IMG/VR virus record: IMGVR_UViG_3300034104_004985
Span: 1 to 35,916 of that record
Reading direction: 5' to 3' (one strand)
DNA length: 35,916 nucleotides
Origin: a virus
The position numbers and the translations under genes were made by a program. Within the stretch, counting starts at the first letter, position 1. Each line of letters begins with the position of its first letter. Below, piece by piece: positions 81 through 27,250 of this stretch. Below the pieces are notes generated by a model. That model saw only the letters and a list, made by a program, of their open reading frames with translations. It searched no databases and was not told the origin of the DNA.

Positions 81-542
81 ATGGCTAACGGAATAACATA
101 CGGTATTAATTTTCCTTTTCAAGACTCAATGGTTGGTAAATATTTAATGACAACACAGAGTACTGATGATGAAATTAGATCAAGTTTAATTCATTTATTG
201 TTAACAAGAAAAGGTAGTAGATATTTTTTACCAGATTTTGGTACTAGATTATATGAATATATTTTTGAACCACTTGATGGACCAACATTTAGTGAGATTG
301 AATCAGAAATTAGAGATAGCGTTGGCCAGTATTTACCTGGAATTAAAATAACCGATATTGAAATAAAACCAGCAACAGCCGATTATATAGATCCGGGTGC
401 AACTTACATTACAGAAAATGGTACAAGAGAATATAGAGTACCTGGCTTGTCTGAAAAAGAATACACAGCAAAAGTAAGAATAGATTATAAAATTACAAAT
501 ACCGCACTTGAATCTAGTGATTTTGTAATTCTAAATATTTAA
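81..542 (+). CDS. 25: T4 gp25-like baseplate wedge protein (GPW/gp25 family)
   Basis: Predicted baseplate wedge subunit of a contractile tail. Family members have a lysozyme-like fold and help join the wedge to the sheath and hub region. The 153-aa product carries the family core at about residues 38-65, including LTRKGSRYFLPDFGTRLYEY followed by FEPLDGP, and the usual amphipathic segment around IESEIRDSVGQYLPGI. Its length is a little above the roughly 130 aa common in the family. The ATG at 81 is preferred over an in-frame TTG at 75 because MANGITYGI is a natural start and the TTG lies inside a TATTTAT element. The gp6-like gene begins 9 bases after the stop, the gp25-gp6 order seen in T4-type tails. 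Confidence 0.93.
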   Translation: MANGITYGINFPFQDSMVGKYLMTTQSTDDEIRSSLIHLLLTRKGSRYFLPDFGTRLYEYIFEPLDGPTFSEIESEIRDSVGQYLPGIKITDIEIKPATADYIDPGATYITENGTREYRVPGLSEKEYTAKVRIDYKITNTALESSDFVILNI

Positions 543-2464: not shown

Positions 2465-5400
2465 ATGCCCAAATCGCATAGAATAAGAACCCAGGTAGGA
2501 ATTGATAAAGCAATCAAAGTTAATCTACAACAGGATTTTGAAAGTATTAACATATTATCATTAAAAATCCTACAAAGTGACATATACAATAGACAATGTT
2601 CCGATTATGGGGTTATTGTTGGAAGGGTATTTGTAAATGGTGGATTTGGTCTACCAAACGCAAGAGTATCCATTTTTATTCCTTTAAGCGACGAGGACGC
2701 AACAAATCCGGTAATCACCGAATTATACCCATATCAAAGTATTTCAGATGTAAGTGAAGATGGTTATAGATATAATTTATTACCAAAAGATCCATCATAT
2801 GATGGTCACGTTGCTACTGGTACATTTCCTAACAGAGAAGAGGTTTTACTTGATCAGTCATATATTGAAGTTTACGACAAGTATTATAAGTATACAACAA
2901 AAACAAATGAAAGTGGTGATTATATGATTTTTGGAGTTCCACTTGGAACCCAAACAGTTTTTATGGATTGTGACCTTTCTGACATTGGATGTTTTTCTTT
3001 AGTACCACAAGACTTAATTCAGGCTGGAATAGCAACTGAGGAACAAGTTGATGGAAATAAATTTAAATCATCAACAAATCTCTCAGAATTACCACAGATT
3101 AAAACATTAAATAAAATTATTGAAATTGCACCACTTTGGGGTGAACCAGAAGTGTGTCAATTAGGTATTACAAGAGTTGATTTTGATTTAACAGCTGAAG
3201 CTAATGTAAAAATTGAACCGAAATCAATTTTTATGGGATCAATTATTTCCACATCTAATGATGATTTTTTGAAAGTTAGTTGTAAACCAAAGAATGATAC
3301 TGGAAATCTTTGTGAATTAATTGCAGGTCAAGGTCAAATTTTAGCAATAAGACAAACAATAAATAATGACGCACTTGGTCAACCGGTTCTTGAGGAATAT
3401 AAATTAGAACAAGGTGGAAAAGTAATTGATGAGGACGGCGCTTACCTTGTCAATCTACCTATGAACCTTGATTATATCTATACAAATGAATTTGGTGAAA
3501 CCGCAATATCAACAGACCCAAAAATAGGTATCCCAACTAAAGGAAAATATAGGTTTAAATTTAAATGGAATAATGAAGGTGGGTTACAAAACGAAATACA
3601 ACGAGCAAACTTTTTTGTACCAAATATTAAAGAATATGGTTGGGATAATGGTTCCGGATATAATGATGACCCATTAAAAACTGGTACCACAACCTCAGTA
3701 AACTTTACAATTCCAGCCGGTGGAACAAGTACTTTATTTACATTTCCAAATGGTGGCGGACTTGTTTACGATAATATTATAAACGCAACTAACTTTTCTA
3801 TCGCAATAAACGGATCACCATATTACGGTGATACACAAGTAATCCCAATTAACGCAGGTGATCAAGTTGAGATAACACCAAATTTTATTGATGTAACACA
3901 ACAAGCTGAAGTCTTATTTAATTTTTATAATCAAGAATATTTTGATTTATTAAGATCATATAGTTTTAGTTTAGATTGGGATGATTATGTTAACCCATCT
4001 GCGGCAATTAATTGTGAAGATACGTTTTATGAATTTCACTATAATAAAGTTTACACAACCTCAATGTTCCTTGACCGATACAAAAAAGGTATTGGTAGGG
4101 CAAGACATTTAGGGATAAAAGAAATTGATAATAGAACTTGTAAATCAACAGTTAATACATTTCCAGTAAATGATATAGTAAGAAATTTTGATTGGATATT
4201 TTTTGTATTCAATTTACTAATGTCAATTTTAGCGTTTCCGATTTTAGCTATTTTATTTATAGCACATCTTATCTCACTTTTATGGCCAATTTTAAAATGG
4301 ATTTTAATTGCCTTATCACTTTATTTTGCTGTACAATCAGCTTTTGCTATATATGAAATTGCAACTGAAATTGCTGCGGTAGGTAACGAATTACTTGGTG
4401 TTTTTAGCGCCGGACCAACAGGTGTTGTTGTAAACATTACAAATATTTTAGAAGCTCTCAGATTGAGTTTACTTATTATAGTTTTAATTATTAAAGCAAT
4501 TTTTATTGTTGGTATATCAGTTGCATTTGTTGCACTTGCGATATTTGCGGCGCTTAGAATTACAGAATTTTCCAGAATTGGACTTCCAATGATTTCGTAT
4601 CCAGATTGTACAACATGTGATTGTGATTGTGGAAATGCTGAAATGCCAGATGATTTTGATTCTGAAAGTGTGAATAACTCTATAAATGAAGAGGGTAATG
4701 CTAATTTTGAGGGTGGCGCATCTTCTGAATATGTACCAACCTCATCATCAAAACAAACTTCAATATTTGCACCAATAAATAATATAGGAAAATACACTAA
4801 TAATCACCCAAATATTGATCAACCATTAAAACCAGCAGGAAGTCCTGGCGGTAACGATGATGAGCCTAGAGAAGATTATGGGAATTTTTGGTTTGATGGT
4901 ATTGGAAACCAAGGAGGGCCAAACAAACAATATAGATCGTTCCAAAACCAGGTTTACGACCAAAAACTAAATGGTAGTGTAGCTGTTGCGGCACAACTTG
5001 GATTCAATAGACTATCAGCTGGAAGTGAGTCGTTAGATAGTGAAGATATGACAAGAGGAATACCCGATAAATATTGTTTACATGCACCACAACCATTTTT
5101 ATTTGCTACTTACAGAATGTTTGGTAATAGTGGTAATAGTTATAGGTTTTTAGGACACCCAATTACTGAAGCGTTTTCGCAAAAATTAAATGAGTTTAAT
5201 TACAGACAAAAATATTTTGATGGTGTAAACAGAATGAAAGTTACGTTCAATACCCCAGATAATGTTACTAATCATTACGATCAACCATTAGTTATATTAG
5301 CAAAAAAAGGAACACTAGAAAGTCTAGGTACTGGAAAGTTAATAACATTCCAAGACTCAACACTATCTAATTGTAATATTAATATTACTGGCGCAACATT

Positions 5401-8257: not shown

Positions 8258-10008
8258 TGAGTATAGATAGTCCAAATAACATTTTATTAGGTAGTAAAAG
8301 ATACCAAGGAGCACCTGACATTGATATGTCAGAGAAAGTTGTATTGGAACAAACTTCTCACGAAGAGGTTGAATATGAGAGAACTATAGATATAAGTCTA
8401 GCTCAAATTTTTGATGATGAACGACAAACTTCCGAAGTGTTTAGACCAACAACAAAGTTTAATTTTGTATTTAAAAACGTTTACTACGGAACATCAAACT
8501 TTCAACCATTCTATAACTATTTTTATTATGTTGATTTAGTTGAAAGTGCCCAACAATCATTATGCATTCAACCACCGGTATGGTATGGATACCCGCAATA
8601 TGATGAATTTGATTTTATTAGAACTGATAATAATAAAAATGGTTACACATCTGGCACACCAAACCATAAAACTTTTATAAATAAAAGTGCGTCAACATAT
8701 AATTGGACACAATATATTAGTTATGCATTTGAAAACGATTATAATAAATTACTATATTGTTCGGATCCTGAATATGTTATAAATTGGAACTGGAATGCCG
8801 GAGACGGAATCCCATTTTACATTAGTAATATTACTAGCGATTCAATTGTGTTTAAATGTCCTATGAAACACGGGTTAATTGTTGGTGAATATGTTAAATT
8901 ATCTTTTAACTATAATGGCACTGACGTTTTTGCTGTTAGTGGTTTAGGTGATGGTGGATCTGGAAGTGATGAATATATTTTCAGTATAGATAATATTGGA
9001 TTTATAGGTACAACATTTAATATTGGTGTTACTGGAAATTTAAAAAGAGTAATTAACCCAACAAATGAAACTGAAACAACATCAAAATATTACATACGAA
9101 GACATAGAATAATTACTGTTTCAGATGATGCCGTTTTAGTTAATAGTGGATATGAACAAAGTATTTTTAATAAAAAAACACAATTAGAAAAAGTATTATC
9201 TGGTGGAACACCATTACAAATTTTAACACCACCAACCTGCCCAAGAACATCTGTTTTAGAAGGTAGTCAAAATTATACATTATCTTTTAATAGAGACATT
9301 GATATTTCTGGAATTTTAGATAATCAAAAAAGACCGGTTAGTGAATTGTTTTTCACAACAATTTGGAAAGGTTATTATGGTTGGACAAATAGATTAAAAG
9401 AAGGACATTATTTTAACTCTTATTTGGATGGTGCGGTACCTAATTTTTGGTGGAATACCGCAAACCCAGGATCTGATTCAACAATCCCTTTTAGTACATA
9501 CAATACTAACTACCCTGGTGTTTTCCCACAATTTGTTTATACACAAGATTTAACAAGTGGTGACACGATTGATGGTGATTATTGTGAATGGAATGATTTT
9601 GAACAATTAGAAAGAGTTGTGTCTAGAAAAATACATAAGATTACATTTAATCAAAATCATTTTGCAACAAATCCTTTATTACCAAATACGAATAAATATG
9701 GGTACTACTACTTCCCTTTAAGTCCATTAACAATTAAAGTTTATTCTGATTATATTGAAGAGGGCGATCCAAATCAAGTGACCAATATACCAACTTACGC
9801 ATTCTATTCAAACGCGTCAAATGGATTTAGGTGGCGAGATATTTATCCTTACGGATATGTTGACACAAATGACTTAGGTGTTGATTATCCATTCACAAAT
9901 GGGACACATTATCCATTTAAGACGACTATTTTCAGATTATATTCGGAAGGTACAGGAGTCCAAGACATAACACAAATACCAGACCCTACAACAGATGAGT
10001 GTGAGTAA
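8257..10008 (+). CDS. Unrecognised 583-aa structural protein of the baseplate module
   Basis: I do not recognise a family. The product is soluble-looking, rich in Tyr, Asn, Phe and Trp, with no signal peptide or membrane segment, as expected for a beta-rich virion protein. The N-terminal 60 residues are more acidic and polar (VVLEQTSHEEVEYERTIDIS). The C-terminus ends in the acidic tail DPTTDECE. It overlaps the preceding stop by one base, and the next gene overlaps its 3' end by 14 bases, so the three genes are probably translationally coupled. A role as a tail or baseplate component is inferred from position only. Confidence 0.75.
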   Translation: MSIDSPNNILLGSKRYQGAPDIDMSEKVVLEQTSHEEVEYERTIDISLAQIFDDERQTSEVFRPTTKFNFVFKNVYYGTSNFQPFYNYFYYVDLVESAQQSLCIQPPVWYGYPQYDEFDFIRTDNNKNGYTSGTPNHKTFINKSASTYNWTQYISYAFENDYNKLLYCSDPEYVINWNWNAGDGIPFYISNITSDSIVFKCPMKHGLIVGEYVKLSFNYNGTDVFAVSGLGDGGSGSDEYIFSIDNIGFIGTTFNIGVTGNLKRVINPTNETETTSKYYIRRHRIITVSDDAVLVNSGYEQSIFNKKTQLEKVLSGGTPLQILTPPTCPRTSVLEGSQNYTLSFNRDIDISGILDNQKRPVSELFFTTIWKGYYGWTNRLKEGHYFNSYLDGAVPNFWWNTANPGSDSTIPFSTYNTNYPGVFPQFVYTQDLTSGDTIDGDYCEWNDFEQLERVVSRKIHKITFNQNHFATNPLLPNTNKYGYYYFPLSPLTIKVYSDYIEEGDPNQVTNIPTYAFYSNASNGFRWRDIYPYGYVDTNDLGVDYPFTNGTHYPFKTTIFRLYSEGTGVQDITQIPDPTTDECE

Positions 10009-10807
10009 GTATAAAATATTAATTCCAACAACTGACAAACAGATCAATATTCCAATTGAGATGAAATGGGATTTTACTGAAAGAGATCAGGCTATAGATA
10101 GATATCAAAATGAAGTTTTAAATGAACTCATAGGTCCAGTTAATGATTTTGAACTTGTAAGGTTTTCACACGAAGATTATTTATCGGCAAACACAAACGA
10201 CTTTGTTACAAAAATATTTTATGAGTTTAATTTTTTTGATACCGGAAGTACAATAAACAACCCAACAGCCTGGGTTAATAGTTACATATATGAAGGATTT
10301 TCACCATTAGAAATATATTCGTATTCAAAACCTTTTACAAAATCATTTTTTAAAATTGACTTTTATGATACACCAGATGAAGCATCACAGATAAATTATT
10401 TTACAATAATATTACCAGTACAACAAGGTGATTTTGAAACTGTTACAATCTCATCTTCATTATCAAATGTTAAAATAAGAAAACCAAGGATGGGTCTTGA
10501 TTTTATTGGTGATAAAGAAGGTTTCTTCATTTATTGGTTAAGAAAAAGAACTTACATAGATAAAGATGAGTTCTATATGAGTGCAAAATTTTTTAATGGT
10601 AAAACCGGAACATTTACAAGAATGATGAACAGACCGCAATCAACATTACTTGGAAATTATTATACATTCAATAGTAACGATTATTTTTATTATAAAGTTA
10701 AATTAAATTATGACCAAAGAAATTACCAAGCAACTTCAACGGTCACAAACAATAGAGTCGGAGACGAAATAAACCCAATTTCTTGGTATGAATATGTAAA
10801 TCCATAA
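9995..10807 (+). CDS. Unrecognised 270-aa structural protein
   Basis: No family recognised. The start at 9995 lies within the last codons of the previous gene (14-base overlap, different frame), and the stop shares a base with the next ATG (TAATG). The product has mixed alpha/beta composition, with aromatic-rich stretches (IFYEFNFFDTG) and a basic patch (IYWLRKRTYIDKDEF). There is no Cys cluster, signal peptide or membrane helix. Its position inside an unbroken baseplate operon suggests a small wedge or connector subunit, which is an inference. Confidence 0.7.
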   Translation: MSVSKYKILIPTTDKQINIPIEMKWDFTERDQAIDRYQNEVLNELIGPVNDFELVRFSHEDYLSANTNDFVTKIFYEFNFFDTGSTINNPTAWVNSYIYEGFSPLEIYSYSKPFTKSFFKIDFYDTPDEASQINYFTIILPVQQGDFETVTISSSLSNVKIRKPRMGLDFIGDKEGFFIYWLRKRTYIDKDEFYMSAKFFNGKTGTFTRMMNRPQSTLLGNYYTFNSNDYFYYKVKLNYDQRNYQATSTVTNNRVGDEINPISWYEYVNP

Positions 10808-11982
10808 TGGAAGAACAAAAGTATTATTTTAAGATTTCTCCGGAAAATATTAAAGGTGATTTAATTACGGTTCCCTATACAGGCGAAACTGATATTTCAG
10901 TTTTTATTGATCCTTGCTGTCCATCAAATTCCACAATTACTATAAATACCTTAACTGGAGACACTGGGTATTACCTTCCAATGGATATTGTTTTATCTGG
11001 TGGTACAAGTGGAACATCAATTCTTGAATGTTTATCAATTAATTTACTCTTTACTGAAAATACTGTTGATTTTGGGTATTATACACCTTTTGATGGTGCT
11101 GTATTACAAAAAGATGTTATTACAAATTTCCTTTGGTCTGGAAGCACTGGTAGCCCATACAATGTTGTATTTTATAATACATCAGAGACCGATGTGACTA
11201 AATTTTTAGAACTTTGTACATTTGTGTTAGATTGGGGTGATGGGTCACCATTAGTTACATTAACCGGTGGAGCACCACTTACACATTCATATCCACCAGC
11301 AACAACAACATATGAAATTGTTTTAACTTGTTACTCACCCTGGGGTATATCAACAGTTACAAAACCAATTAATTTACCATATACAAATGTTACAATACCA
11401 AATGAAAATGGTACTTCGTATTTTACACCAACAAATTGTAGTTGGACTGGAACTCCAGTAAGTTACGATTTTATTTTTACCGGAGACTCAAATACAAACC
11501 TTTTGGATCATATAAGTAGCGGATACACAACAACACCATATTTGATTACCGGAACAACAAGAAGTTCAATTAACGACCTAAGAGTTTATGGTCCCAAATA
11601 TAATTTATTTGGTGGTAAGTTTAAATTAAATGTACCAGTAACAGGAACTTCTGGTAGTGTTGGTATTGTTTATGGTCCTGATCCGACAGGATTATATACC
11701 GCCTATACAATTAACGATATATTATATTGGGATTTAAGTGGTGGAACAACAATTTTCTTTGCAACATCTTATGGGATCCAAGAAGACCTTTATACCCTTT
11801 CCGCGATTACAAAAAATGAGGCTCTTATGAATGTGATTGATGAACCACAAATACAATCTGATTTATTTGTTGAGAGAGGTAAACTATCAGGACTTGAAGC
11901 CTTACAGAGATTAGGTGAAATTGATAATTTGGGAGATATTAACAAATATGGATATGGGTATTTTAAAGTTAAAAAATACTAA
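10807..11982 (+). CDS. PKD-like domain structural protein (391 aa)
   Basis: A predicted virion protein with a polycystic-kidney-disease-like immunoglobulin fold at about residues 105-190. The diagnostic DWGDGSP lies at 142-148, followed by the usual THSYPPATTTYEIVLTCYS strand pair. Flanking parts are Thr/Gly/Ser-rich beta sequence. The C-terminal 60 residues are more charged (LFVERGKLSGLEALQRLGEID), and the last residues, GYGYFKVKKY, look like a conserved tail. PKD domains are common in Bacteroidota secreted proteins and in phage appendages, where they act as spacers or weak glycan binders. It is coupled to the upstream gene by a 1-nt overlap and followed by a 43-base gap with a TATTTAT element. 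Confidence 0.75.
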   Translation: MEEQKYYFKISPENIKGDLITVPYTGETDISVFIDPCCPSNSTITINTLTGDTGYYLPMDIVLSGGTSGTSILECLSINLLFTENTVDFGYYTPFDGAVLQKDVITNFLWSGSTGSPYNVVFYNTSETDVTKFLELCTFVLDWGDGSPLVTLTGGAPLTHSYPPATTTYEIVLTCYSPWGISTVTKPINLPYTNVTIPNENGTSYFTPTNCSWTGTPVSYDFIFTGDSNTNLLDHISSGYTTTPYLITGTTRSSINDLRVYGPKYNLFGGKFKLNVPVTGTSGSVGIVYGPDPTGLYTAYTINDILYWDLSGGTTIFFATSYGIQEDLYTLSAITKNEALMNVIDEPQIQSDLFVERGKLSGLEALQRLGEIDNLGDINKYGYGYFKVKKY

Positions 11983-11988
11983 ACTCTG

Positions 11989-11995
11989 TATTTAT
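11989..11995 (+). promoter_or_regulatory. TATTTAT element before the 302-aa gene
   Basis: TATTTAT followed by AAAAAG lies 30 bases before the GTG start at 12026, in a 43-base gap that breaks an otherwise overlapping gene series. Promoter function is inferred from recurrence. Confidence 0.4.
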
Positions 11996-12025
11996 AAAAA
12001 GATAAACATTACTAAAATTTAAATT

Positions 12026-12934
12026 GTGGCAACAGGTAGTTACGGAACAATTAGACCGGCAGATGTAAGTCCGGATGATGTGGAGATAATTTTAAATTAT
12101 ACACCATCCAGAGATAATACTGATAATTTTTTACTTACAACACTTGACGCAAAAAATGTATTGGTACCATATTTCCACAATAATAATACTGGTGGAAACG
12201 CAAATGTTGAGATATTAGGTGGTTTATATAATTTAAAACTACCTGCCGATCAATTTAATAAACTCGGAATTTACACACTTTATATAAGACCTGCCGAAAT
12301 CAGAACCAAAATAACAGATTGTGGTGTATTATCAGCACTACCAAATGTTAGAGGTATTGTAATTGACATTAACAATGTCCCAGCAAATTTTAAAAATAAA
12401 TTTGTAAACCAAGGATTAATTGGGTTTAGAGTTGAATATCTAAACGATAATGGTACAAAAATACCAAACTTTTTTAGAATAATTACCTCATCTTTTTATT
12501 GTGAACCAGTTTATCAAAACCTTACAAATACATCACAAAAGTCAATTAGATATAGGTATGTTGAAGGGACAACTAATTTGATATTTTGTACTCTTTCACC
12601 AGCTTCATCACCAACCAACAAACCAAATGCGATACCATATATTGGACAACCAAATCAAAATATTATTATAACAAATACTTTTTTTAACCCAATAACAACC
12701 GAAATTGAAATTGTTGATCAGGACATCTCAACTCTTGCAATAGCTCTTTATGGTAATCAAACTAAGTCTATGGATGATGGTATTTACACAATCTATGACA
12801 ACCAAAATAACATTTATAAACAATACAATCTATACGAAATTAGAGACCAGTTTAATAACCCACTTTATGAGGTTAGACAAGATCGTGGTACTAATATAGA
12901 TTTCAGTAAAGCTTTTAATAACATTACCGGATAA
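12026..12934 (+). CDS. Unrecognised 302-aa structural protein, GTG start
   Basis: Start codon GTG (12026-12028, reading VATGSYG); there is no in-frame ATG upstream and the TATTTAT leader sits just before it. The product has no recognised family. It contains a repeated aromatic/Asn pattern, an internal ILGGLYNLKLPADQFNKLG segment and a C-terminal IYDNQNNIYKQYNLYEIRD segment that looks like stacked beta strands. No signal peptide or membrane helix is seen. The stop shares one base with the next ATG. Its place before the gp7/gpI-like gene suggests a wedge or tail-fibre-connector component, by inference. Confidence 0.72.
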   Translation: MATGSYGTIRPADVSPDDVEIILNYTPSRDNTDNFLLTTLDAKNVLVPYFHNNNTGGNANVEILGGLYNLKLPADQFNKLGIYTLYIRPAEIRTKITDCGVLSALPNVRGIVIDINNVPANFKNKFVNQGLIGFRVEYLNDNGTKIPNFFRIITSSFYCEPVYQNLTNTSQKSIRYRYVEGTTNLIFCTLSPASSPTNKPNAIPYIGQPNQNIIITNTFFNPITTEIEIVDQDISTLAIALYGNQTKSMDDGIYTIYDNQNNIYKQYNLYEIRDQFNNPLYEVRQDRGTNIDFSKAFNNITG

Positions 12935-15900
12935 TGGCTATTAGTAAATTTACTTGTCCGCCCCAAGCTTCAGCTCAGGGATCTTTTTCTGACAATTTAG
13001 TTGGATTACAAATTGTCGATGGGGGAGGTCTTACACAAGGAAATTTTCAGTTTACAACTACAATTAGTGAAAAACAAGACCGTAATTTTGAGATAGGATC
13101 ATTCTCAGATCCAATATCATTAGATTCTATGAATATATCTAATGTTGAACAGTCTAAAATGATTATCGCAAATAATTTACAAGTTTACCCAAACTATGAC
13201 TTATCGCAAATTACAAACTTTACACTTTACGGTTCGCTTGTTTTAAGAGTGTCGGCCGCAATATCAAAAATAATTAATTTCTTTCCAGCCGCATTAGATG
13301 TTTCTTCATTAAGACCAGATTTTAGTACTGGGTACACCGTAACAAATATATCATACGATAAGATTGAAAATGAGACATCTATTGAAATTTATTTGGACGC
13401 AATAAAAAATCCATTTGGAATTGATTTTAGTGAAAATGCCGATAGAAATACGGCATCCTACGAATTTTCAACATCCGAGTTAAGAAATATGAAAAAGAAT
13501 TATATTAAATATTCTTTATTTCTTAATGGTGAGGAATACCCCCTAAATGATATTGTTCCAATAAAAAGTACAGACACTACTTTTACGGTTTATTTAAAAG
13601 GTGAACCATTCCCAAACCAGTACTTTTCCGATTCAAGTTTTTTAATTAAACCATCTGACTTTTACACAAACGAAGTTTTTCTAAATAATTTTGATACTGT
13701 AGAAAACTTTTTATTAAATAGACAAAACACACCAATATATACAGCATACTTCCAGGTACCGAGAGAAAATGAGGACGGAACATATACCTTTACTTATGAA
13801 GCTTTAAAATTTCCTGTGGATGGAACCTGGAACTTAGATATTTCCACTTTAGCCTTCCAAAATTACTTGAATCAATTAAATAATTTTGCTGTTAATTTGG
13901 ATGAGTATACGACTAATTTAATTTCAAGATTTTTTACCACAGCATCACTTAAAGAGTTTGATACTGTAGATAGAAAATTTGAAAAAATAATACAAATATA
14001 CGGAAGAAGTTTTGATGAAACAAAACAATTTATTGGGACTCTAGCAAATATGAACTCGGTAAATTACAATATTAAAAATGATATACCATCACAACTGCTA
14101 AAAAATCTTGCACAAACTTTAGGTTGGAATATAAACATATCGCCAACAACTGAAACAAATTTTTTAAATTCTGTATTCAAACCAACTGATAGTAATTTTG
14201 AGGGAGTACCGGTAGGTCAAACGCCAGACGAATTAAATTATCAATATTATAGAAATTTGATAATGAACTCTGCGTTTCTATTTAAGTCAAAGGGAACCAG
14301 AAAATCAATTGAGGTTTTGATGAGGTTTATTGGTGCTCCAGATTTTTTAGTTGATTTTAACGAATATGTATACCTTGCAGATCAAAGAATATCCATAACT
14401 GATTTTGAAACACAATATGCAAATATTTCAGGTGGAACATACACCCAGGTAACACCGGTTTTAGACCCAACAGACGTGTATTCAATTATGGGGGTACAAT
14501 ATACTGGGGTCACATTATCAAGTGATACTAAAGATGTTAGTATAACTTCGGTTGATTATCCAATAGATCAATACGGTTGTCCATATATGCCACCAGATGG
14601 TGAAAGTTATTATTTCCAGATTGGTGGTGGGTGGTTTGAATCAACACCTCAACATAGAATGCCAGAACAAGTTGACTTAACAACTTCAGTATTTACTGGG
14701 ACAAACCCAAATTATCAAACAAAATTAAAACCATTTAATTATGGTGAAGAATATCTTGACAGATATAGAAAGTTCCCGTATATGAATTTAGGGCTCAAAT
14801 TGAGAAGAGTACAAGATAATAAAAAAAGTTGGACAGATAATGATAATGGGTTAAGAACAAGTTTTGATGCTAATTTTAATTCCTATTACCCAACATCTGA
14901 AGATTGTTTGGTACTTAATGTTAAAAATGTTGACATAATGTTAAACCCAAGTTTGGGTCTAGCATATGATGTTTGGTCAATGTCAAGAAGATATAATTAC
15001 CCAATACCAAATGAAGGTTTAAATTATGTTGAACCAACATATTGTAATCCAAATCCAAATACACCGTACCCAAAAAGAGGTGGGATTGATTGGACAGAAA
15101 TTGTACCAAAACCAAAAGAAAAAACATTTTTTGAGTTTTTACAAACATTTTGGCATAACACAATTAATGTTAGAAATAGACAATTTATCACTGATGGTAA
15201 AACCGGTGGCTACCCAACCCTACAATCTATATATTGGAAGTATCTTGAATCAAGAACATTAGCAGGACTTCCAAATGATAATTTTACATATCAACCACTA
15301 ATTGATTATGTTGTTGGAATGGGAGATTATTGGGTTAGACTTGTTGAACAAATGGTTCCGGCAACAACAATCTGGAATACTGGTATTAGATACGAAAATT
15401 CTATTTTTCATAGACAAAAATTTGTCTGGAGACGACAATTTGGTTGTAAAATTGTTCCGATACCTTGCAAACCTTGTGAAGTTACCGGACAACTATTCGC
15501 TTACGATTGCCCAACTCAAATAATTGAATGTCCATTATATCCTTGGAACGCAGATCCTACTTATCTAACTTTTGGTAATTTACTTGCAAATGTAATTAAA
15601 GAAAAAATAATACCAAGTGGTTTAACACTTAATGATTGTCAATTAAATAGTGTTGTCGCAAATTGGTTTGTTGATATTAGATATGATGGAACACCATTAA
15701 TTATAGAACCATTTGCGGTAACTAGTGGATATTATTCATACCCAACAAATCAAGAATGGATAGATGGATTAAATTCGGCATTTACTAATTTACAAAATAG
15801 TGGATATGAATATTTTATAGATGAGGACAATGAAACAATAACAGTTTACAATATAAATTGTTCTGTGTTGAATAACGAGGACTTATTTCAAATAAATGTG

Positions 15901-15945
15901 GGAATAAACTTTACGATACTTTGTGATCAAACAGGGATAGGATAA
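12934..15945 (+). CDS. Baseplate wedge protein, tail-protein-I / gp7-like (1003 aa)
   Basis: Residues about 395-475 show the layout of the phage tail-protein-I family: LLKNLAQTLGWNINIS, then YYRNLIMNSAFLFKSKGTRK followed by SIEVLMRFIGAP. The LKSKGTR-type helix after a conserved Leu-rich helix is the hallmark. In P2-like tails this fold attaches fibres to the wedge; in T4-like tails gp7 has a related role. Residues about 745-835 carry a second conserved-looking block (VEQMVPATTIWNTGI, NSIFHRQKFVWRRQ). The C-terminal 100 residues resemble the end of the next protein (shared LNS, PT, W-x-D/G, N-x-TIT and Cys positions). The product is much longer than P2 gpI, so it is probably a fusion of wedge and fibre-docking parts. 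The next gene starts one base after the stop. Confidence 0.8.
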   Translation: MAISKFTCPPQASAQGSFSDNLVGLQIVDGGGLTQGNFQFTTTISEKQDRNFEIGSFSDPISLDSMNISNVEQSKMIIANNLQVYPNYDLSQITNFTLYGSLVLRVSAAISKIINFFPAALDVSSLRPDFSTGYTVTNISYDKIENETSIEIYLDAIKNPFGIDFSENADRNTASYEFSTSELRNMKKNYIKYSLFLNGEEYPLNDIVPIKSTDTTFTVYLKGEPFPNQYFSDSSFLIKPSDFYTNEVFLNNFDTVENFLLNRQNTPIYTAYFQVPRENEDGTYTFTYEALKFPVDGTWNLDISTLAFQNYLNQLNNFAVNLDEYTTNLISRFFTTASLKEFDTVDRKFEKIIQIYGRSFDETKQFIGTLANMNSVNYNIKNDIPSQLLKNLAQTLGWNINISPTTETNFLNSVFKPTDSNFEGVPVGQTPDELNYQYYRNLIMNSAFLFKSKGTRKSIEVLMRFIGAPDFLVDFNEYVYLADQRISITDFETQYANISGGTYTQVTPVLDPTDVYSIMGVQYTGVTLSSDTKDVSITSVDYPIDQYGCPYMPPDGESYYFQIGGGWFESTPQHRMPEQVDLTTSVFTGTNPNYQTKLKPFNYGEEYLDRYRKFPYMNLGLKLRRVQDNKKSWTDNDNGLRTSFDANFNSYYPTSEDCLVLNVKNVDIMLNPSLGLAYDVWSMSRRYNYPIPNEGLNYVEPTYCNPNPNTPYPKRGGIDWTEIVPKPKEKTFFEFLQTFWHNTINVRNRQFITDGKTGGYPTLQSIYWKYLESRTLAGLPNDNFTYQPLIDYVVGMGDYWVRLVEQMVPATTIWNTGIRYENSIFHRQKFVWRRQFGCKIVPIPCKPCEVTGQLFAYDCPTQIIECPLYPWNADPTYLTFGNLLANVIKEKIIPSGLTLNDCQLNSVVANWFVDIRYDGTPLIIEPFAVTSGYYSYPTNQEWIDGLNSAFTNLQNSGYEYFIDEDNETITVYNINCSVLNNEDLFQINVGINFTILCDQTGIG

Positions 15946-15946: not shown

Positions 15947-18160
15947 ATGAGTTACATTGGATTAAATAATTTTTCAATAACCGGAGATTGTAATAACACA
16001 TCATCTGGTGAAATCTATTTTGAAATAACCGGAGATTCACCAAATTGGTTAGTTACGGAAGTAAGTTCAAGTGGTCTTTTACCAACAACAGTTCTCACAC
16101 CATTATCTTTCACATACTATGTTGGAGGACTACCATTTGGAAGTTACCAACTAATCGTTACCGACAGTGGAGGCTCACCACAGTACCCAATTTCTTTTTA
16201 TATCTCAACAGGAACAACAACTAGCGCAGTTTCAGAAGATACAACATGCAATTTACCAAATGGTAGTGTTACAGGTTACACAACATATAACTACGGAACA
16301 TCAGTTTTCTATCTTTACGACACTTCAAACACACTAATTGATTCGGCAAGCCCAATTCCACCTAGTACGAATTATGTTTTTACAAATTTAACACCTGGTG
16401 ATTACTATATTATTGCCGATGACGGTGGTGGATGTTCAGGTCAAAGTGAATCTGTTATTGTTAGATCAAGTACAAATTTTACATTTGGTTATTATTCTGT
16501 TGACGACGCAAGTTGTGTCCTAGGACAAGGAACCGGAAAAATCTACATAACAGGACTTACAAACCCAACAAGTGCCTTTACAATAAATTGGTTATCAGAT
16601 GTAAACGGTCAAACTGGAACTGTTGTAACTGGATTAACACAAGGATTATATACTGTTGAAATTACAAATTCGGTTGGTTGTACAAATACCGAATCAATTT
16701 ATATTGACAATATTCCACCAATTGGAATTGCAAATGGTAGTTCAATAACGGTAGCACCAACTTGTTTTAATAGTGATGGATCAATTACCGTCATTGTTAC
16801 TGGAGGTACCGCACCTTTTTATTACAGTTGCTCAAATGGAGATTCCGCAATTTCTTTTAGCACAACACATACATTTAGTAATTTAACCGCCGATCTATAC
16901 ACAATAACTGTAACTGACGCAGGACTTTGTCAAACATCAATTCCTGTGACTTTGGCAACACCAGGATCATTTGGTGTTGTAAGTATTTCTACAACAAACT
17001 CAAATTGCAATTCAAGTAACGGGGTTGTAAATGTAACCGTAAACAATGGCGTTGGTGGGTTTAACTTTACATATACTCTCTCTGGAAATACCGGACTAAT
17101 ATCCGTTTCTCCAAATCAAGGACAAAGTCACACATTTAATGGTGTACCATCCGGTGATTATATTGTTTTAGTTGATGATAATTTAGGTTGTGTATTTACT
17201 GGGACAACTACAATAATAAATGAGAATAAGTTTACTATTTCAGCTGCAACAACCGGAACAACTTGTGGGTTAAATAATGGATCAATTATAATCTCAACAT
17301 CAACCGGAGGAACATTACCATATTCATATAATTTAGTAGGACCTTTATTTGACCCATCACCATCAAATATTACACAATTAAGTGGTGTTTTTAACAATTT
17401 AAAATCTGGAAATTATACTCTAACTGTAACTGATAGTACTGGTTGTCAACAAATTACGGGTGTATATATTGATCCGTCAAGTCCAGTCCAATTCACATTA
17501 GTAAAAACAGACCCAGTACTTGGAAACGATGGTACAATTGATTTAATTATAACTGCCGGAAATCCACCATTTACATATAATTGGTCACCAAACGTTGGAT
17601 TACAAACTGGTTTATCAATTACAGGTCTTTCATCTGGAATATATACCGTATTAGTTACCGATTCTGACGGATGTCAACTTTTCAAATCGATTAAATTAGC
17701 CGGTACTGATCTTATACAAAATTACGATTATGTAACAATTTGTGAGAAACCATTTGGCGCTAGTGATATTGTTGGAAAAAGAGGAATACAACAAATGTAT
17801 AATGAGGGTTATAGTGATTTAATTTCTGGCGACACAAATTGTATATTAAATTCTGCAGAATTTAAAGCTGTTGTTGAAGTAGGTGACGAAATTGTTGAAA
17901 ATACTTTTTATACATCAACGACACTCCAGGATTTCCCAACTGATTTTTTATGGGCTGATACATTACAAACTGTACTTGAATCATTCACGGGTATTGGTGA
18001 AGTTGTTGTTGATCTTGCTAATAACACAATAACAATCACAAATGATTGTGAGGAAATAAACAAAAATTGTGGAACACAAACATATAATCTTTTAAACGAT
18101 ACAAGAATTATTGTAAATATGGTAATTACTTATAACATTTCTTGTGTTGCATGTAATTAA
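15947..18160 (+). CDS. SprB-repeat adhesin-like virion protein (737 aa)
   Basis: About seven tandem Ig-like repeats of 65-75 residues (roughly 15-75, 95-165, 185-250, 265-335, 345-415, 435-505, 515-585). Each has the SprB-repeat pattern: a Cys near the start followed by NGS or DGSI, TGGTxPFxYxxS in the middle, and L-x-x-G-x-Y-x-x-x-V-T-D-x-x-GC at the end (for example GIYTVLVTDSDGC). SprB repeats are best known from the flavobacterial gliding adhesin SprB and related outer-surface proteins. The C-terminal 110 residues are a separate domain like the end of the preceding baseplate protein, a probable docking unit. There is no signal peptide or type IX secretion sorting domain, so it is a virion part rather than a secreted host protein. 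It is likely a fibre or whisker that contacts the host surface. Confidence 0.85.
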   Translation: MSYIGLNNFSITGDCNNTSSGEIYFEITGDSPNWLVTEVSSSGLLPTTVLTPLSFTYYVGGLPFGSYQLIVTDSGGSPQYPISFYISTGTTTSAVSEDTTCNLPNGSVTGYTTYNYGTSVFYLYDTSNTLIDSASPIPPSTNYVFTNLTPGDYYIIADDGGGCSGQSESVIVRSSTNFTFGYYSVDDASCVLGQGTGKIYITGLTNPTSAFTINWLSDVNGQTGTVVTGLTQGLYTVEITNSVGCTNTESIYIDNIPPIGIANGSSITVAPTCFNSDGSITVIVTGGTAPFYYSCSNGDSAISFSTTHTFSNLTADLYTITVTDAGLCQTSIPVTLATPGSFGVVSISTTNSNCNSSNGVVNVTVNNGVGGFNFTYTLSGNTGLISVSPNQGQSHTFNGVPSGDYIVLVDDNLGCVFTGTTTIINENKFTISAATTGTTCGLNNGSIIISTSTGGTLPYSYNLVGPLFDPSPSNITQLSGVFNNLKSGNYTLTVTDSTGCQQITGVYIDPSSPVQFTLVKTDPVLGNDGTIDLIITAGNPPFTYNWSPNVGLQTGLSITGLSSGIYTVLVTDSDGCQLFKSIKLAGTDLIQNYDYVTICEKPFGASDIVGKRGIQQMYNEGYSDLISGDTNCILNSAEFKAVVEVGDEIVENTFYTSTTLQDFPTDFLWADTLQTVLESFTGIGEVVVDLANNTITITNDCEEINKNCGTQTYNLLNDTRIIVNMVITYNISCVACN

Positions 18161-18494: not shown

Positions 18495-20714
18495 ATGGCA
18501 ATTCTTACAGATAGAGATTTAGCACAAGCGTCAGCAATAACAGCAACGACACTTATTCATATTGTAGATCCTTATGATCAATCACAAAACCCAGCGGGAT
18601 CATCATATAAAGCAACTCTTGGTCAAGTATTAACACTTTTTAGTGGTGCAACATCAATATATGAAGTTGGTTCTGGTACATTATCAGTACAGAGGATTGG
18701 TGTTAATGCCGATGCAAGTGGTAATTATTCAACAATAAGTGGCGGGTATAAAAACACAGCAAATTCCGATTATTCAGTTGTAAGTGGGGGATTTAGTAAT
18801 ACAACATCTAATAATTATTCAACAATAAGTGGTGGTTATTGTAATACATCAGAACAATATGGTTCATTTATTGGTGCCGGTGGATGTAATAGTATTTTGG
18901 ACAATACAACAACTAGATCTGTAATTGTTGGAGGACTTTCAAATGTTGTAGAACAAGGTTACGGTAATTTTATTGGTGGCGGATTTAGTAATACAACATC
19001 TAATAATTATTCAACAATAAGTGGTGGATATTGTAACACATCAAGCGGTGGCGGGTCAACAATAGGAGGAGGAAGATTTAATGTATCGAGTGGAGATTGT
19101 TCTCCAACCGTAGGTGGCGGAGAAAGCAACACATCAAATGGGTGTTACTCAACCATAAGTGGTGGTCGTTGTAATACCGCATTTGGAAATAATTCATATA
19201 TTGGTGGTGGTCAAAATAATACGACTGACTCTGGATATTATCAAGGAACCACAATAGTTGGTGGTGCATATAATACAGCAATAAATGCATATAATTTAAT
19301 TGGTGGTGGTTATTTTAACACAACTGACCTTGGTAGTTTTTCTGTACTAACTGGTGGCTATTGTAATGTTTCAAATGGAGATTATCTATCAATTGGTGGT
19401 GGCCGTGAAAACACTTCATTAGATAATTTTTCTGTAATTGGTGGCGGACAAAGCAATACAAATACAAGTTGTTTTTCATCAATTGTTGGTGGACTTTCAG
19501 GACTTACAAGTGGTATTTTTTCATTTGTTGGTGGTGGTCGTTGTAATACAACTTTAGGTAGTTGTTCTGTTGTCGTTGGCGGGTTACTTAATACTGCTAA
19601 TGGTAGTAATTCTTTTGTTGGTGGTGGAGGACAAAATACAACCTCAAACAGTTATAATGTAATTGGTGGTGGTGGTGAGAATACAACAATAGGTTGTTAT
19701 TCATTTGTTGGTGGGGGATGTCTTAACACAATAAGTGGATATTATTCAACCGTAGGTGGTGGATATAAAAATTGTACACTTGGTCAAAAATCTTTTGTTG
19801 GTGGTGGTGATAAAAATGTTGTTTTAGAGAGTTGCTCAACAATAAGTGGTGGATACTGTAACACAACAATTGATTGTCTTTCTGTTATTGGTGGTGGTAG
19901 GGATAACACGACTTGCGGAAGAAATAGTATTATTGTTGGAGGGTCTTATAATAGAGCATTAGTTCAACATGGAATAATTGTAGGTGGTACTTGCAACACT
20001 GTTGCTGGTACTTGTTCTACCATCGGTAACGGTGTTTGTAATACAGTAACCGGAAATTTATCAACAATTGGCGGTGGTCAAAATAATACTGCAAGCGCTC
20101 TTTTAAGTTCTATTCTTGGTGGGTGTGGTAACATATCATCTTGTAACTATTCTTTTATTGGGGGTGGAAGATGTAATACATCATCAAATTATGATGCTGT
20201 TGTTTCCGGTGGTTTTTGTAATGTTTCATCTGGTGTATGGTCTGGTGTTGGAAATGGTATAAAAAATACTGTAATAGGTAATGGATCTAATATTGCTGGT
20301 GGTAGAGAAAATACAACATTAAATCAAGATGATACTGTATCTGGTGGTTTTTGTAATAAATCATTAGGAAGTGGCGGATTTGTTGGTGGCGGTTTATGTA
20401 ACACAACAGTAAGCCCAATCTCAACAATTGGTGGTGGTATTTGTAACACAACAAACGCAATAAGATCTGTAATTGGTGGTGGCGAATCTAACGTAATTAA
20501 TAATCAATATGGTGGTATTTTAGGAGGATCAGGAAATACAGTTTCACATAATTGTTCTTTTATTGTTGGAAACGCAATTACAACTTCCTGTCCAAATACA
20601 ACATATATGAATTGTTTATCAATTATGGATCTACAAGATGGTTCAGCAGGATTATTATCTGGTGCGGTATACTATTGCTCAACAGATTCAAATAGATTAT
20701 ATTACGTTCCATAA
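18495..20714 (+). CDS. YadA-like beta-roll tail fibre with about 40 rungs (739 aa)
   Basis: A long fibre. Residues 1-59 form an N-terminal segment (LAQASAITATTLIHIV, GSSYKATLGQ) nearly the same as that of the - strand fibre, so it is likely the virion attachment part. From about residue 75 to 700 come roughly 40 repeats of 15-16 residues with the pattern S-x-I-x-GGG-x-x-NTxSxx (for example YSTISGGYCNTS). This is the head-repeat type of YadA-like and Hep_Hag adhesins, which form trimeric left-handed beta-rolls. Asn is nearly invariant and many rungs carry Cys just before it. The last 35 residues (LQDGSAGLLSGAVYYCSTD, NRLYYVP) break the pattern and may be the tip. No intramolecular chaperone domain is visible. 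Trimerisation is inferred from the family. Confidence 0.88.
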   Translation: MAILTDRDLAQASAITATTLIHIVDPYDQSQNPAGSSYKATLGQVLTLFSGATSIYEVGSGTLSVQRIGVNADASGNYSTISGGYKNTANSDYSVVSGGFSNTTSNNYSTISGGYCNTSEQYGSFIGAGGCNSILDNTTTRSVIVGGLSNVVEQGYGNFIGGGFSNTTSNNYSTISGGYCNTSSGGGSTIGGGRFNVSSGDCSPTVGGGESNTSNGCYSTISGGRCNTAFGNNSYIGGGQNNTTDSGYYQGTTIVGGAYNTAINAYNLIGGGYFNTTDLGSFSVLTGGYCNVSNGDYLSIGGGRENTSLDNFSVIGGGQSNTNTSCFSSIVGGLSGLTSGIFSFVGGGRCNTTLGSCSVVVGGLLNTANGSNSFVGGGGQNTTSNSYNVIGGGGENTTIGCYSFVGGGCLNTISGYYSTVGGGYKNCTLGQKSFVGGGDKNVVLESCSTISGGYCNTTIDCLSVIGGGRDNTTCGRNSIIVGGSYNRALVQHGIIVGGTCNTVAGTCSTIGNGVCNTVTGNLSTIGGGQNNTASALLSSILGGCGNISSCNYSFIGGGRCNTSSNYDAVVSGGFCNVSSGVWSGVGNGIKNTVIGNGSNIAGGRENTTLNQDDTVSGGFCNKSLGSGGFVGGGLCNTTVSPISTIGGGICNTTNAIRSVIGGGESNVINNQYGGILGGSGNTVSHNCSFIVGNAITTSCPNTTYMNCLSIMDLQDGSAGLLSGAVYYCSTDSNRLYYVP
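18718..20585 (+). repeat. In-frame array of about forty 45-48-bp fibre rung repeats
   Basis: The coding DNA is an array of degenerate 45-48-bp units centred on GGTGGTGGN(3-6)AATAC(A/T). Most copies differ at many sites, so the array is old, but two regions remain identical over 47 bases (18789-18835 and 18981-19027). Confidence 0.85.
18789..19027 (+). repeat. 47-bp perfect direct repeat within the fibre gene
   Basis: The 47 bases at 18789-18835 (beginning GGATTTAGTAATACAACATC) recur without change at 18981-19027. The offset of 192 bases is exactly 64 codons, so loss or gain of the segment by recombination would keep the frame and change fibre length by four rungs. Confidence 0.9.
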
Positions 20715-20756: not shown

Positions 20757-21737
20757 ATGAAAGATTTAGTATTTGTATGTGCCCATCCGGACATCCCATA
20801 TTTTCACTGGCAAACAAAAGTTTATACTCACAACTTTATTGAAAAAGGAATAAAACCGGAAAATATTCACGTTTTATTTGTTATTGTTAATGGATCAACT
20901 GAACCAACAAAAGAATCTCTTGACTTAAAAGAAATCGGAATTAATGTCCACCATTATTTAGACGATAGAAAAAATAAAAGATATATCCCAAGTCTTAGAC
21001 CTTTAGCATTATCAAGATGGTTAAAAGAATACCCAGAACTTGGAAAATACTACTTTTATCACGATTCTGATATCATATTTAGAGAATTACCAGATTTTGA
21101 AAAATTATTAAAAGATGATTTTGTATATCTTTCAGACACATTAGGATATATAAATTATGATTATATTCTTAGTTGTAGTAAAAGATATGAAAGACAATAC
21201 CCCCAATTAGAAAAAGACGAGTTACTAAAATTAATGACAGAAACAATTGGAGTCTCAATTGATGATATTAAAAAAATAAATAAAGACTCCGGTGGAGCGC
21301 AGTACCTTATCAAAAACACAGATTATACGTTTTGGGAAAAAATATTTAAAGACTGTGAAACACTATACGAAAAGATATTTCTTTTTGATAGAAGACACCC
21401 GATACCACACGGTGGACTCCAAATCTGGACATCTGATATGTGGTCCGTACTTTGGAATTTAGTATTAACCGGACACGAAGTTAAAGTAACAGATGATTTA
21501 GATTTTTCCTGGGCTACAGATACTATTGAAATCTATGATAAAAAACCAATTTTACATATGGCCGGAGTTACCGATGACATTAAACATACAAAGTTTTATA
21601 AAGGAGAATTTATAAATGTTGATCCTTTAGAAAAACTAAAGGAGAATGAAAATTACTTTGATTATGTTGAACCGACAAGTTCTACAATAAAATATATTGA
21701 AGTTATGAAATCTTACTTAGAAAAAACAAAAAACTGA
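20757..21737 (+). CDS. Putative GT-A-fold glycosyltransferase (326 aa)
   Basis: A probable sugar-nucleotide-dependent glycosyltransferase acting in the infected cell. Seen in sequence: an N-terminal beta-alpha start (MKDLVFVCAHPD), a segment PLALSRWLKEYPELGKYYFY running into the DxD-type motif HDSDIIF (Asp103-Ser-Asp105) for metal/nucleotide-sugar binding, GGAQYLIKN at 179-187, WTSDMWSVLW at 224-233, and a C-terminal ILHMAG whose His (267) could complete the metal site. There is no membrane segment. It lies between a Cys/Asn-x-Thr-rich fibre and two Thr-tract proteins, after a 42-base gap lacking the TATTTAT element. Virion-protein glycosylation is a reasonable target but is inferred; sugar modification of host surface or DNA is also possible. 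The family subgroup is not identified. Confidence 0.62.
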   Translation: MKDLVFVCAHPDIPYFHWQTKVYTHNFIEKGIKPENIHVLFVIVNGSTEPTKESLDLKEIGINVHHYLDDRKNKRYIPSLRPLALSRWLKEYPELGKYYFYHDSDIIFRELPDFEKLLKDDFVYLSDTLGYINYDYILSCSKRYERQYPQLEKDELLKLMTETIGVSIDDIKKINKDSGGAQYLIKNTDYTFWEKIFKDCETLYEKIFLFDRRHPIPHGGLQIWTSDMWSVLWNLVLTGHEVKVTDDLDFSWATDTIEIYDKKPILHMAGVTDDIKHTKFYKGEFINVDPLEKLKENENYFDYVEPTSSTIKYIEVMKSYLEKTKN

Positions 21738-21752: not shown

Positions 21753-24029
21753 ATGGGTGCTTGTTATGATACATGTTATGTTGTTGAGTTAAAAAACACA
21801 GGAACAACTGAAGAATCAATATCTTTTGTTGATTGTAGTGGTTATACACAATCTTTAACAATACAACCTAATGAAATATCTTTAATAAATGTTGATATTG
21901 ATTTTGCTGTAAGTGGTAATACTAGTGAAAATATTGCAACATCATATTTTGAACATGTAACAGATTTGTATTATTTTAGTTCATGTTGTGAAAACAATGA
22001 GTATTTTTGTTTTTTAGCAACAGAAGAATTATTTTCAGATAATTATGGTTTATATAGTGACAATTACATTGTTAGTGACACATCTGAAGAATTAAATTAT
22101 CAATGCACCTCAGTTTTTGATCTTGAGAGTGTAACATCTTGTCCACCAATTAGTGGTAATTTAATATCAATAATAAATAATTACACAATATATTCTGGAG
22201 ATATAACAACAAATGGTTGTGTTAACTGTGTAGATGAAAATCCTTGTTTAACACAATGTTACGGACTTTTAGCTTGTGAGGGAATTTACGATTTGATTAC
22301 ATCATCAGATCCATCACTTTCTGGTTATGTTGATACATATGTTAATATTGATATTTTAACACCATTTCCTGAATCACCAACAACACAATTTTTAGTTAAA
22401 GATCTTGGTGTTATAGATTGTACTCAGGAATATACTTTTACATATACCGCAAGTACTGGAACTTGTGATTGTCAGTGTTATAGATTTAAAACACCAAGTG
22501 ATCCATTTATAACCTCTTTTGTTGATTGTGATGATAACTTATTACAAGTTTATTTACCAACCGGAAAGACAACTAATATTTGTAGTAAAGTTAGACCTAT
22601 TTTTAACACACAAACTGCAATTCCAGTAAAACTTGGTGGTTTATGTGTGAATGGTGATTGTCCAGATTTACCTATTGTCACAATTGAACCAAGAAACGAA
22701 TGTGATGTTTTAACAATATTTCCTATGGATGTTAGTTGCTTGGTAACACACCCATCTACACCATACTCTTTTGATGGTGAGGCTCAATTATTAATATCAG
22801 GAGGAACACCACCTTATACAGTTTCCTGGGAAATTGGAAGTGTTGCACCAACAATTATTAATTTGAGTGTTGGAAATTATAATGCTACTGTTACTGATTT
22901 TTATAATGATTTTGAAATAAACACAACTTGTGTTTTAACAGCTGAAACTCCAGCAACAACTACAACTACAACAACAGCACCACCATTACCTACATACGAT
23001 AACTTATGTATGTTTGTTAAATATTTAAAACCAAAAATCACAGTTCAAATACAATTTATATTCAATGGATACTTGAATGGAAAACCAACTTGGGTTTCTA
23101 ATGATAGTGTTTATGATTTATACTGGAACACAGGATCAACACCAAATCAATGGGTTGTGAGTGGATTCCAACCACCAACAACACAAGTTATAAATGTTAA
23201 CCCAACAACACCACCGATAACCGGATGGCAAGTATTTGGTGAATCTTTAATTTCTAGTGTTTTTGTTGTTAGTGGAAACTGTGAATCAAATCAACCTGTC
23301 GAATTTACATATAACGTAACTGAAGCTAAATGTGGTAATAACGGAACAATAACAATACAAGCAACTGGTGGTGATGGTGTATATGAATATTCTGTAGACA
23401 ATGGAATTACTTGGACAACAAATCCAATATTCCAAAACCTATCCGCAGGATCGTATCAAGTACACGTAAGAGACGGCCTTGGAACAACAACAATCCAAAC
23501 AGTCGTGGTACCATTAGCCGCAGCACCAACTGTAAATCTTAATTTAAATGTAAATTATTCACTTGGAACATTCACGGTAACATCTGATGTTCCACCAGGA
23601 TTCACAGTATCATTTGATATTAATCATACAAATATTTTTGAATATTACCCTAGTAATATATCACCTTTACCAACATATAATAATATTGTAACAGTGATAA
23701 ACCCAAGTTTTGGTCCTTTACCACAAATTGGAATAACACAAACACAACAAACACCAATTATTGTCCCAGCATGTGGTTTAGGTCCTGTATTAAAAAATGT
23801 AGAGCAAAAACAATATGGAACAACATTAACAATTACAAATGGACAAACAATAAATGGAACATTTACAAATCAACTAACACAATCAAGTGCGCCTACCAAA
23901 TGCAAAGGTGCTAATAGAAGTATGCAAATAACACTTACAAATACAAAAGTAAATGATTGTGAATGTTGCGTTATTAAAACAACAAGTTTACAAATTGGTG
24001 AAGGTTCTGGGTTAGTAATAAAAGCCTAA
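21753..24029 (+). CDS. Cys-rich multidomain adhesin-like protein with SprB-like repeats and a Thr linker (758 aa)
   Basis: A mosaic of small beta domains. Two copies of a Cys-centred module appear: residues 3-60 (YVVELKNTGT, FVDCSG) and about 238-305 (CYRFKTPSDPF, FVDCDDN, NICSKVRP, GGLCV). The same module ends the - strand protein at 27302-28354. SprB-like repeats lie at about 335-400 (GEAQLLISGGTPPYTVSW, VGNYNATVTD) and 510-586 (CGNNGTITIQATGGDGVYEY, LSAGSYQVHVRDG). Between them is a Thr tract (ATTTTTTTAPPLP, about residues 405-417). The C-terminus has DCECC. There is no signal peptide. It is probably a fibre, whisker or decoration protein; the exact role is unknown. The start ATG at 21753 is the only good one after the TATTTAT leader. 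Confidence 0.78.
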   Translation: MGACYDTCYVVELKNTGTTEESISFVDCSGYTQSLTIQPNEISLINVDIDFAVSGNTSENIATSYFEHVTDLYYFSSCCENNEYFCFLATEELFSDNYGLYSDNYIVSDTSEELNYQCTSVFDLESVTSCPPISGNLISIINNYTIYSGDITTNGCVNCVDENPCLTQCYGLLACEGIYDLITSSDPSLSGYVDTYVNIDILTPFPESPTTQFLVKDLGVIDCTQEYTFTYTASTGTCDCQCYRFKTPSDPFITSFVDCDDNLLQVYLPTGKTTNICSKVRPIFNTQTAIPVKLGGLCVNGDCPDLPIVTIEPRNECDVLTIFPMDVSCLVTHPSTPYSFDGEAQLLISGGTPPYTVSWEIGSVAPTIINLSVGNYNATVTDFYNDFEINTTCVLTAETPATTTTTTTAPPLPTYDNLCMFVKYLKPKITVQIQFIFNGYLNGKPTWVSNDSVYDLYWNTGSTPNQWVVSGFQPPTTQVINVNPTTPPITGWQVFGESLISSVFVVSGNCESNQPVEFTYNVTEAKCGNNGTITIQATGGDGVYEYSVDNGITWTTNPIFQNLSAGSYQVHVRDGLGTTTIQTVVVPLAAAPTVNLNLNVNYSLGTFTVTSDVPPGFTVSFDINHTNIFEYYPSNISPLPTYNNIVTVINPSFGPLPQIGITQTQQTPIIVPACGLGPVLKNVEQKQYGTTLTITNGQTINGTFTNQLTQSSAPTKCKGANRSMQITLTNTKVNDCECCVIKTTSLQIGEGSGLVIKA

Positions 24030-26641: not shown

Positions 26642-27250
26642 ATGGCAAAGCAAATTAAAAATTCCCCAAAAGTTCTTGGTTTAGACATATCAACGAAAAC
26701 AATAGGTTGGGCACTATTTGATATTCAATCACAAGAACTATTGGAACTCACACATATTTCACCAAGACCAAAAATGGCAAAAGAAGATGATGATAAATTA
26801 AAAGAACTTCTTTTAAAATCTGAAGTATTTGCTGAGAAATTAAAGCAATACCTTAATTTAGGAATCGTTAAAGTTGTAATAGAAGAACCACTACTTAACT
26901 CAAATAATGTTTATACAATCCAAACACTTTTAAGATTTAATAGTTTTGTATTTAAAGAAGTATATAATATTTTAGGTATTGTTCCAGAATTTATCTCAAC
27001 TTACAACTCAAGAAAATTTGCTTGGCCAGATCTGGTACAGGAAAATGATAAAGGGAAACACGTATTATTTGGAGGACTACCAAAGGACATTGATAAGAAA
27101 ATGATAATTTGGGAAAAAGTCGCAAAAAGAGAACCACAAATTACTTGGCATTATACAAAAAATAATACACTTAAAAAAGAGAACTTTGATCAAACAGATG
27201 CGTACACTTGTGCTTTAGGTTATATGAGATCAAAAGAAATCTGGAGTTAA
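26642..27250 (+). CDS. RuvC-like Holliday-junction/branch endonuclease (202 aa)
   Basis: An RNase H-fold nuclease of the RuvC family, expected to resolve branched DNA during replication, recombination or packaging. Motifs: KVLGLDISTKTIGWALFD at 10-27, with catalytic Asp15 in the G-x-D-x-S/T-x-x-x-G-W/Y pattern; KVVIEEPLLNSNNV at 77-90, with Glu81/82; and NFDQTDAYTCALGYM at 182-196, with Asp183 and Asp186 as the final acidic pair. The length is normal for phage RuvC-like enzymes. The leader lacks TATTTAT and instead has TCTATAATCTATATAAAAG. It is the last + strand gene before a bidirectional terminator and is isolated from the replication genes by the - strand fibre block. An RNase H-like transposition or Cas role is unlikely because no partner domains are present. 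Confidence 0.85.
   Translation: MAKQIKNSPKVLGLDISTKTIGWALFDIQSQELLELTHISPRPKMAKEDDDKLKELLLKSEVFAEKLKQYLNLGIVKVVIEEPLLNSNNVYTIQTLLRFNSFVFKEVYNILGIVPEFISTYNSRKFAWPDLVQENDKGKHVLFGGLPKDIDKKMIIWEKVAKREPQITWHYTKNNTLKKENFDQTDAYTCALGYMRSKEIWS

Follow-up and report, generated by a model that had tools for sequence, protein, structure and literature searches.

Proteins of the Pfam family PF13573, among them SprB of Flavobacterium johnsoniae and other Bacteroidota surface proteins, are built from tandem units of about 75–85 amino acids with a cysteine near each end. Another Bacteroidota surface protein, the grappling hook protein GhpA of Aureispira, carries strings of Ig-like domains and forms a giant heptameric filament; PMC13319060 cites its length as 5,898 residues. 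In phages, the crAssphage tail proteins with BACON repeats or Ig-like domains also contain tandem Bacteroidota-type modules (PMC6949934), and the abstract of that paper regards tandemly repeated domains as evolutionary hotspots. The SprB domain itself is not new to phages, because UniProt already holds phage proteins named 'SprB repeat'. Among open-licence papers, we found none that dealt with SprB repeats in proteins of the phage virion.

Here we describe a phage protein with an array of SprB-type repeats, encoded in a virus record of 35.9 kb that may be a fragment and was analysed over its full length of 35,916 nucleotides (the window). The protein shares with PF13573 proteins the same profile, the tandem layout and a unit of similar length with similarly placed cysteines. 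It differs from the bacterial SprB proteins in being encoded in a tail cluster and in having exactly seven differentiated repeats, whereas the arrays in complete bacterial open reading frames (ORFs) contain 1–20. It resembles GhpA in its Ig-like strings but not in forming a giant bacterial filament, and the crAssphage proteins belong to another domain family. The fixed seven-repeat array and a C-terminal domain held in common with a baseplate-cluster protein appear to be new.

Seven SprB-type repeats encoded beside baseplate genes

The gene at 15947–18160 (plus strand, ATG start) encodes a protein of 737 amino acids, consisting of seven Ig-like repeats followed by a C-terminal domain. A first-pass annotation of the sequence had proposed that seven SprB-type repeats make up most of this protein, and profile searches bear this out. 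PF13573 matched with 54.1 bits (E = 1.1e-14; curated cut-off 28). Pfam by itself separated just three repeats, and a profile built from orthologues found seven contiguous units at about residues 4–588, each scoring 49–76 bits. We delimited these, all on the plus strand, as R0 (15947–16207, residues 1–87), R1 (16208–16468, residues 88–174), R2 (16469–16714, residues 175–256), R3 (16715–16963, residues 257–339), R4 (16964–17218, residues 340–424), R5 (17219–17479, residues 425–511) and R6 (17480–17701, residues 512–585). R3 is the top match to Pfam SprB and R0 is the weakest repeat. The similarity of R1–R6 to one another was well above that of shuffled sequences (z = 2.7–14.3), which indicates internal homology, and R0 was marginal in the same comparison (z = 0.9–4.8).

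The repeat assignment extends to relatives, which fall into a near clade and a diverged clade (up to 78% and about 50% identity, respectively, in the neighbouring ORF 12934). At E ≤ 0.001, PF13573 matched 23 of 23 near and 21 of 26 diverged orthologues. The cysteines at either end of R1–R5 are conserved in the near clade, and exactly two cysteines are also present in 788 of 993 bacterial repeats.

The same annotation had placed the protein next to the baseplate and without a secretion or sorting signal, and the gene context bears out the first of these points. The window opens with a gp25-like baseplate wedge (75–542, plus strand) and a gp6/Baseplate_J-like wedge (552–2390, plus strand), which are followed by six large proteins (2465–15945) kept in 79–84 of the related viral loci, then by the SprB-repeat gene and by genes for fibre-like proteins and for replication. 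The SprB-repeat gene begins 1 base past the stop of the last of the six, ORF 12934. Direct reading of its N terminus (MSYIGLNNFSITGDC) revealed no visible signal-peptide pattern, and in contrast to bacterial SprB proteins it had no Pfam match to Por_Secre_tail, the C-terminal sorting domain of the T9SS. Weak Por_Secre_tail matches were present in two relatives. The PHROG match was 'virion structural protein' (E = 1.6e-6), in a family whose category is 'head and packaging'.

Predicted fold of the array

An AF2 model of the protein contained seven beta domains with a mean pLDDT of 78.7 and a pTM of only 0.35, so that the array may be a straight rod or folded. The modelled repeats appear to be Ig-like beta-sandwiches, as the top PDB matches were proteins made of Ig strings. 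By E-value, the first Foldseek matches were to GhpA (PDB 9fly, 9flp and 9flw); its Z of 9–10 was no higher than that of generic Ig/Fn3 string proteins, and a profile search yielded no sequence match between GhpA and the SprB-repeat protein. A profile match linked R5–R6 to a phage neck-whisker protein (PDB 9occ, E = 2e-4). The top viral model match was A0A6J5LD72, a protein from an uncultured Caudovirales phage (UniProt/BFVD) that carries only a domain name, 'SprB repeat', and was found via its model. This match spans the full length of the predicted fold (E = 5.9e-56, 30% identity, 714 amino acids), and A0A6J5LD72 is probably an orthologue of the SprB-repeat protein.

A C-terminal domain in common with the upstream protein

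The C-terminal alpha/beta domain of the SprB-repeat protein (17705–18157, plus strand; residues 587–737) is homologous to the C terminus of ORF 12934 (12934–15945, plus strand), a conserved baseplate-cluster protein of 1003 amino acids that is encoded directly 5' of the SprB-repeat gene in relatives. The paralogous domain of ORF 12934 lies at 15589–15927 (plus strand; about residues 886–998). HHalign comparison of the two C-terminal profiles returned a probability of 97% (E = 1.1e-10), compared with 1% for a control region, and the C-terminal profile of the SprB-repeat protein also found the C termini of many ORF 12934 orthologues, with domain E-values of about 7e-3 to 2e-5. In separate AF2 models, both domains had the element order H-E-E-H-E-E-E.

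Homologous C-terminal domains in the products of a tandem gene pair may mean that both proteins attach to one site or assemble via the domain. We take the sequence homology to suggest that the SprB-repeat protein and ORF 12934 attach at the same site; the common domain could instead act as a chaperone or serve in oligomerisation or assembly. ORF 12934 itself had no match in Pfam, PHROG, PDB sequence or fold searches, and the core of its model is of low confidence. Its 'baseplate' label is therefore based on the order of its gene relative to gp25 and gp6. Motif reading had raised the suspicion that it is a T4 gp7 or P2 gpI wedge protein, and neither profile nor fold searches gave a match to these.

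The PHROG category and the neck-whisker match would both fit a neck or head decoration protein, a non-baseplate component that happens to be encoded within the tail cluster. We consider this unlikely, given the fixed place of the gene behind that of a gp25/gp6-cluster protein and the domain common to both products.

Conservation of repeat number and order

Copy number usually evolves rapidly in arrays of tandem domains. A search with the 1003-amino-acid ORF 12934 retrieved 80 viral contigs. Of the loci, 66 extended for 2200 bases or more downstream, and in 63 of these the array lay in the ORF adjoining the ORF 12934 orthologue. The three exceptions were two ORFs cut by the contig end (L062 and L063) and one locus whose seven repeats lie in an ORF slightly further on (L093). 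All complete syntenic ORFs had exactly seven repeats (59 of 59). An independent search with a generic SprB consensus retrieved 80 viral loci, and all 51 that also held an ORF 12934 homologue had seven repeats; viral families in this search that lacked the link to ORF 12934 had mostly 2–4. The 59-ORF and 51-locus sets overlap, and when merged they comprise 80 distinct contiguous arrays, every one of seven. An 81st array (L205) was left out, as it is non-contiguous and falls outside the SprB-repeat/ORF 12934 family.

The order of the repeats was conserved as well. Between the near and diverged clades, 292 of 311 repeats matched the same position best, with a size-matched bacterial sample included in the comparison. 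In a tree of the repeats, a test proposed in the first-pass annotation, six of the seven positions formed pure phage clades spanning both the near and the diverged clade; the deep branches of the tree between phages and bacteria lack resolution because the units are short. This position-specific orthology implies that the seven repeats differentiated before these phages split. Unlike the view of tandem repeats as evolutionary hotspots in the abstract of PMC6949934, both number and order are fixed here. A number frozen in some 80 diverse phage sequences argues that it matters to the virion.

Other viral proteins with SprB-type repeats were encountered in these searches. The 642-kb phage LR756502 has a distinct, long SprB-type protein carrying roughly 15 repeats (L180, 18606–23630), which we rejected as an orthologue since it is without a C-terminal domain like that in the window. 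Several short viral contigs (L197, L200, L204 and similar ones) encode a family of ~823 amino acids with two SprB-type repeats and no ORF 12934 neighbour.

Relationship to Bacteroidota adhesins

The first-pass annotation made its reading depend on a tie between the repeats and Bacteroidota adhesins, and such a tie was apparent: the best 80 cellular loci for the SprB consensus were all from Bacteroidota, for a query that was composed from the known repeat pattern and whose retrievals thus lean towards canonical repeats. The best bacterial matches were distributed among Chitinophagales, Saprospirales, Flavobacteriales, Bacteroidales and Cytophagales with no preference for Flavobacteriales, so 'SprB repeat' denotes here a general Bacteroidota Ig-like module. 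These comparisons support assignment of the repeats to a Bacteroidota surface-adhesin type. Whole-protein alignment of the SprB-repeat protein found no relatives in bacterial genomes.

The proposed connection to gliding, or to SprB itself, found no support. A special tie to Flavobacterium SprB was sought among the best hits and rejected. Mimicry of the gliding adhesin SprB, or binding to it, would let the virion ride on or blend with the moving adhesin track; the repeat type is identical and a Bacteroidota host is likely, but with the best bacterial matches scattered over several orders, a repeat type that is not specific to gliding and an array that is ancient, we regard this explanation as very unlikely.

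Derivation of the protein from a host adhesin, also proposed in the annotation, would agree with the type of repeat; if it took place, it is older than the phage group, given the six pure phage clades among the seven positions. A recent gain of part of a host adhesin would fit the Bacteroidota-like repeat type, but two phage clades whose neighbouring proteins are only about 50% identical carry an orthologous array, which makes such an event extremely improbable. We discarded recent host capture on the position-specific orthology of the repeats between these clades.

Variable modules outside the array and a model for its role

Outside the repeats, relatives carry different additions. About 500–2200 amino acids precede the seven repeats in part of the diverged clade (L060, L061, L074, L083, L089 and others), and in five members of that clade these N-terminal extensions include VWA domains. 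Some near-clade proteins have a TPT-rich linker and a DUF285 domain after the C-terminal domain. The changing modules, VWA and DUF285, are better candidates for receptor contact.

One possible role is that of a receptor-binding fibre or whisker, in which the Ig-like repeats would bind glycans or proteins of the host surface, as the Ig-like and BACON domains in proteins of other phages have been proposed to do, and the length of the array would be incidental. Ig-like modules are common among phage fibre and tail proteins, the adjoining genes are fibre-like, R5–R6 match the neck-whisker profile and other phage families have proteins with 2–4 SprB repeats. However, a receptor-contact surface would be expected to turn over fast, whereas the position and number of the repeats are strongly conserved and the modules that vary lie outside the array. 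We therefore see this role as conceivable but on balance doubtful.

We favour, with modest confidence, the explanation that the SprB-repeat protein is an old Ig-type arm of fixed length, borne by the baseplate, that holds host-contact modules in position. The C-terminal domain would dock the protein on the baseplate at the site used by the paralogous domain of ORF 12934, and the seven Ig modules would serve as a spacer of set length, in which the paired cysteines of R1–R5 may be oxidised outside the cell. Contact with the cell surface would be made by the outer end or by the added modules, VWA before the repeats and DUF285 after the C-terminal domain. The repeats would have been derived long ago from a Bacteroidota-type adhesin module and would now be a building block of the virion. 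This suggests that phages preying on one bacterial phylum permanently incorporated an adhesin module of that phylum. A more specific proposal, which we put forward as speculative and rather improbable, is that, in a widespread group of Bacteroidota phages, the count of seven modules acts as a ruler that sets the reach of receptor contact, for example to the thickness of a host capsule or surface-adhesin layer.

Phage group, host and neighbouring genes

The window phage is T4-type: gp25 and gp6 are present in the window, and two large relatives encode a T4-type gp23 and terminase, head genes being absent from the window. The nearest named relatives of the wedge, the primase and the relatives' gp23 and terminase include Flavobacterium phage vB_FspM_immuto (Immutovirus); among named phages of Bacteroidota hosts it is the closest for gp6, for primase and for the gp23 and terminase of a relative of the window, with about 25–41% identity. 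Within 42 kb around its baseplate genes, we found neither SprB repeats nor an ORF 12934 homologue. A Shine–Dalgarno-like site of at least 4 bases preceded 1 of 22 genes, fewer than the 9% given by random places, and the window has a GC content of 32%. The relationship to immuto, the lack of a Shine–Dalgarno signal and the GC content make a Bacteroidota host likely. We found no cultured member of the group, and searches of named phages with ORF 12934 and ORF 21753 gave no homologues. The SprB-repeat gene together with the ORF 12934 gene provides a marker by which these uncultured phages, and their hosts, could be located.

Related repeats recur downstream in ORF 21753 (21753–24029, plus strand; Pfam, 40.6 bits), as the first-pass annotation had noted, and there are two of them, weaker than those of the array, at about 22722–22943 and 23292–23516. 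Between the two SprB-type genes lie two others on the plus strand. The first (18495–20714) encodes a 739-amino-acid protein of short 'YSTISGGYCNT'-like repeats, with a beta-roll, YadA-head-like appearance and no Pfam or PHROG match. The second (20757–21737), located among structural genes, encodes a 326-amino-acid protein of phrog_4417 (unknown function) with a DxD-like motif (HDSDIIF or HDADIIF); it has a counterpart at 9612–10589 of contig L010 and homologues in 31 related loci. This protein had no convincing PDB match; it is possibly a glycosyltransferase of the GT-A type, decorating the virion or the host surface. Immediately 3' of the tail genes, the window encodes a RuvC-like resolvase (26642–27250, plus strand).
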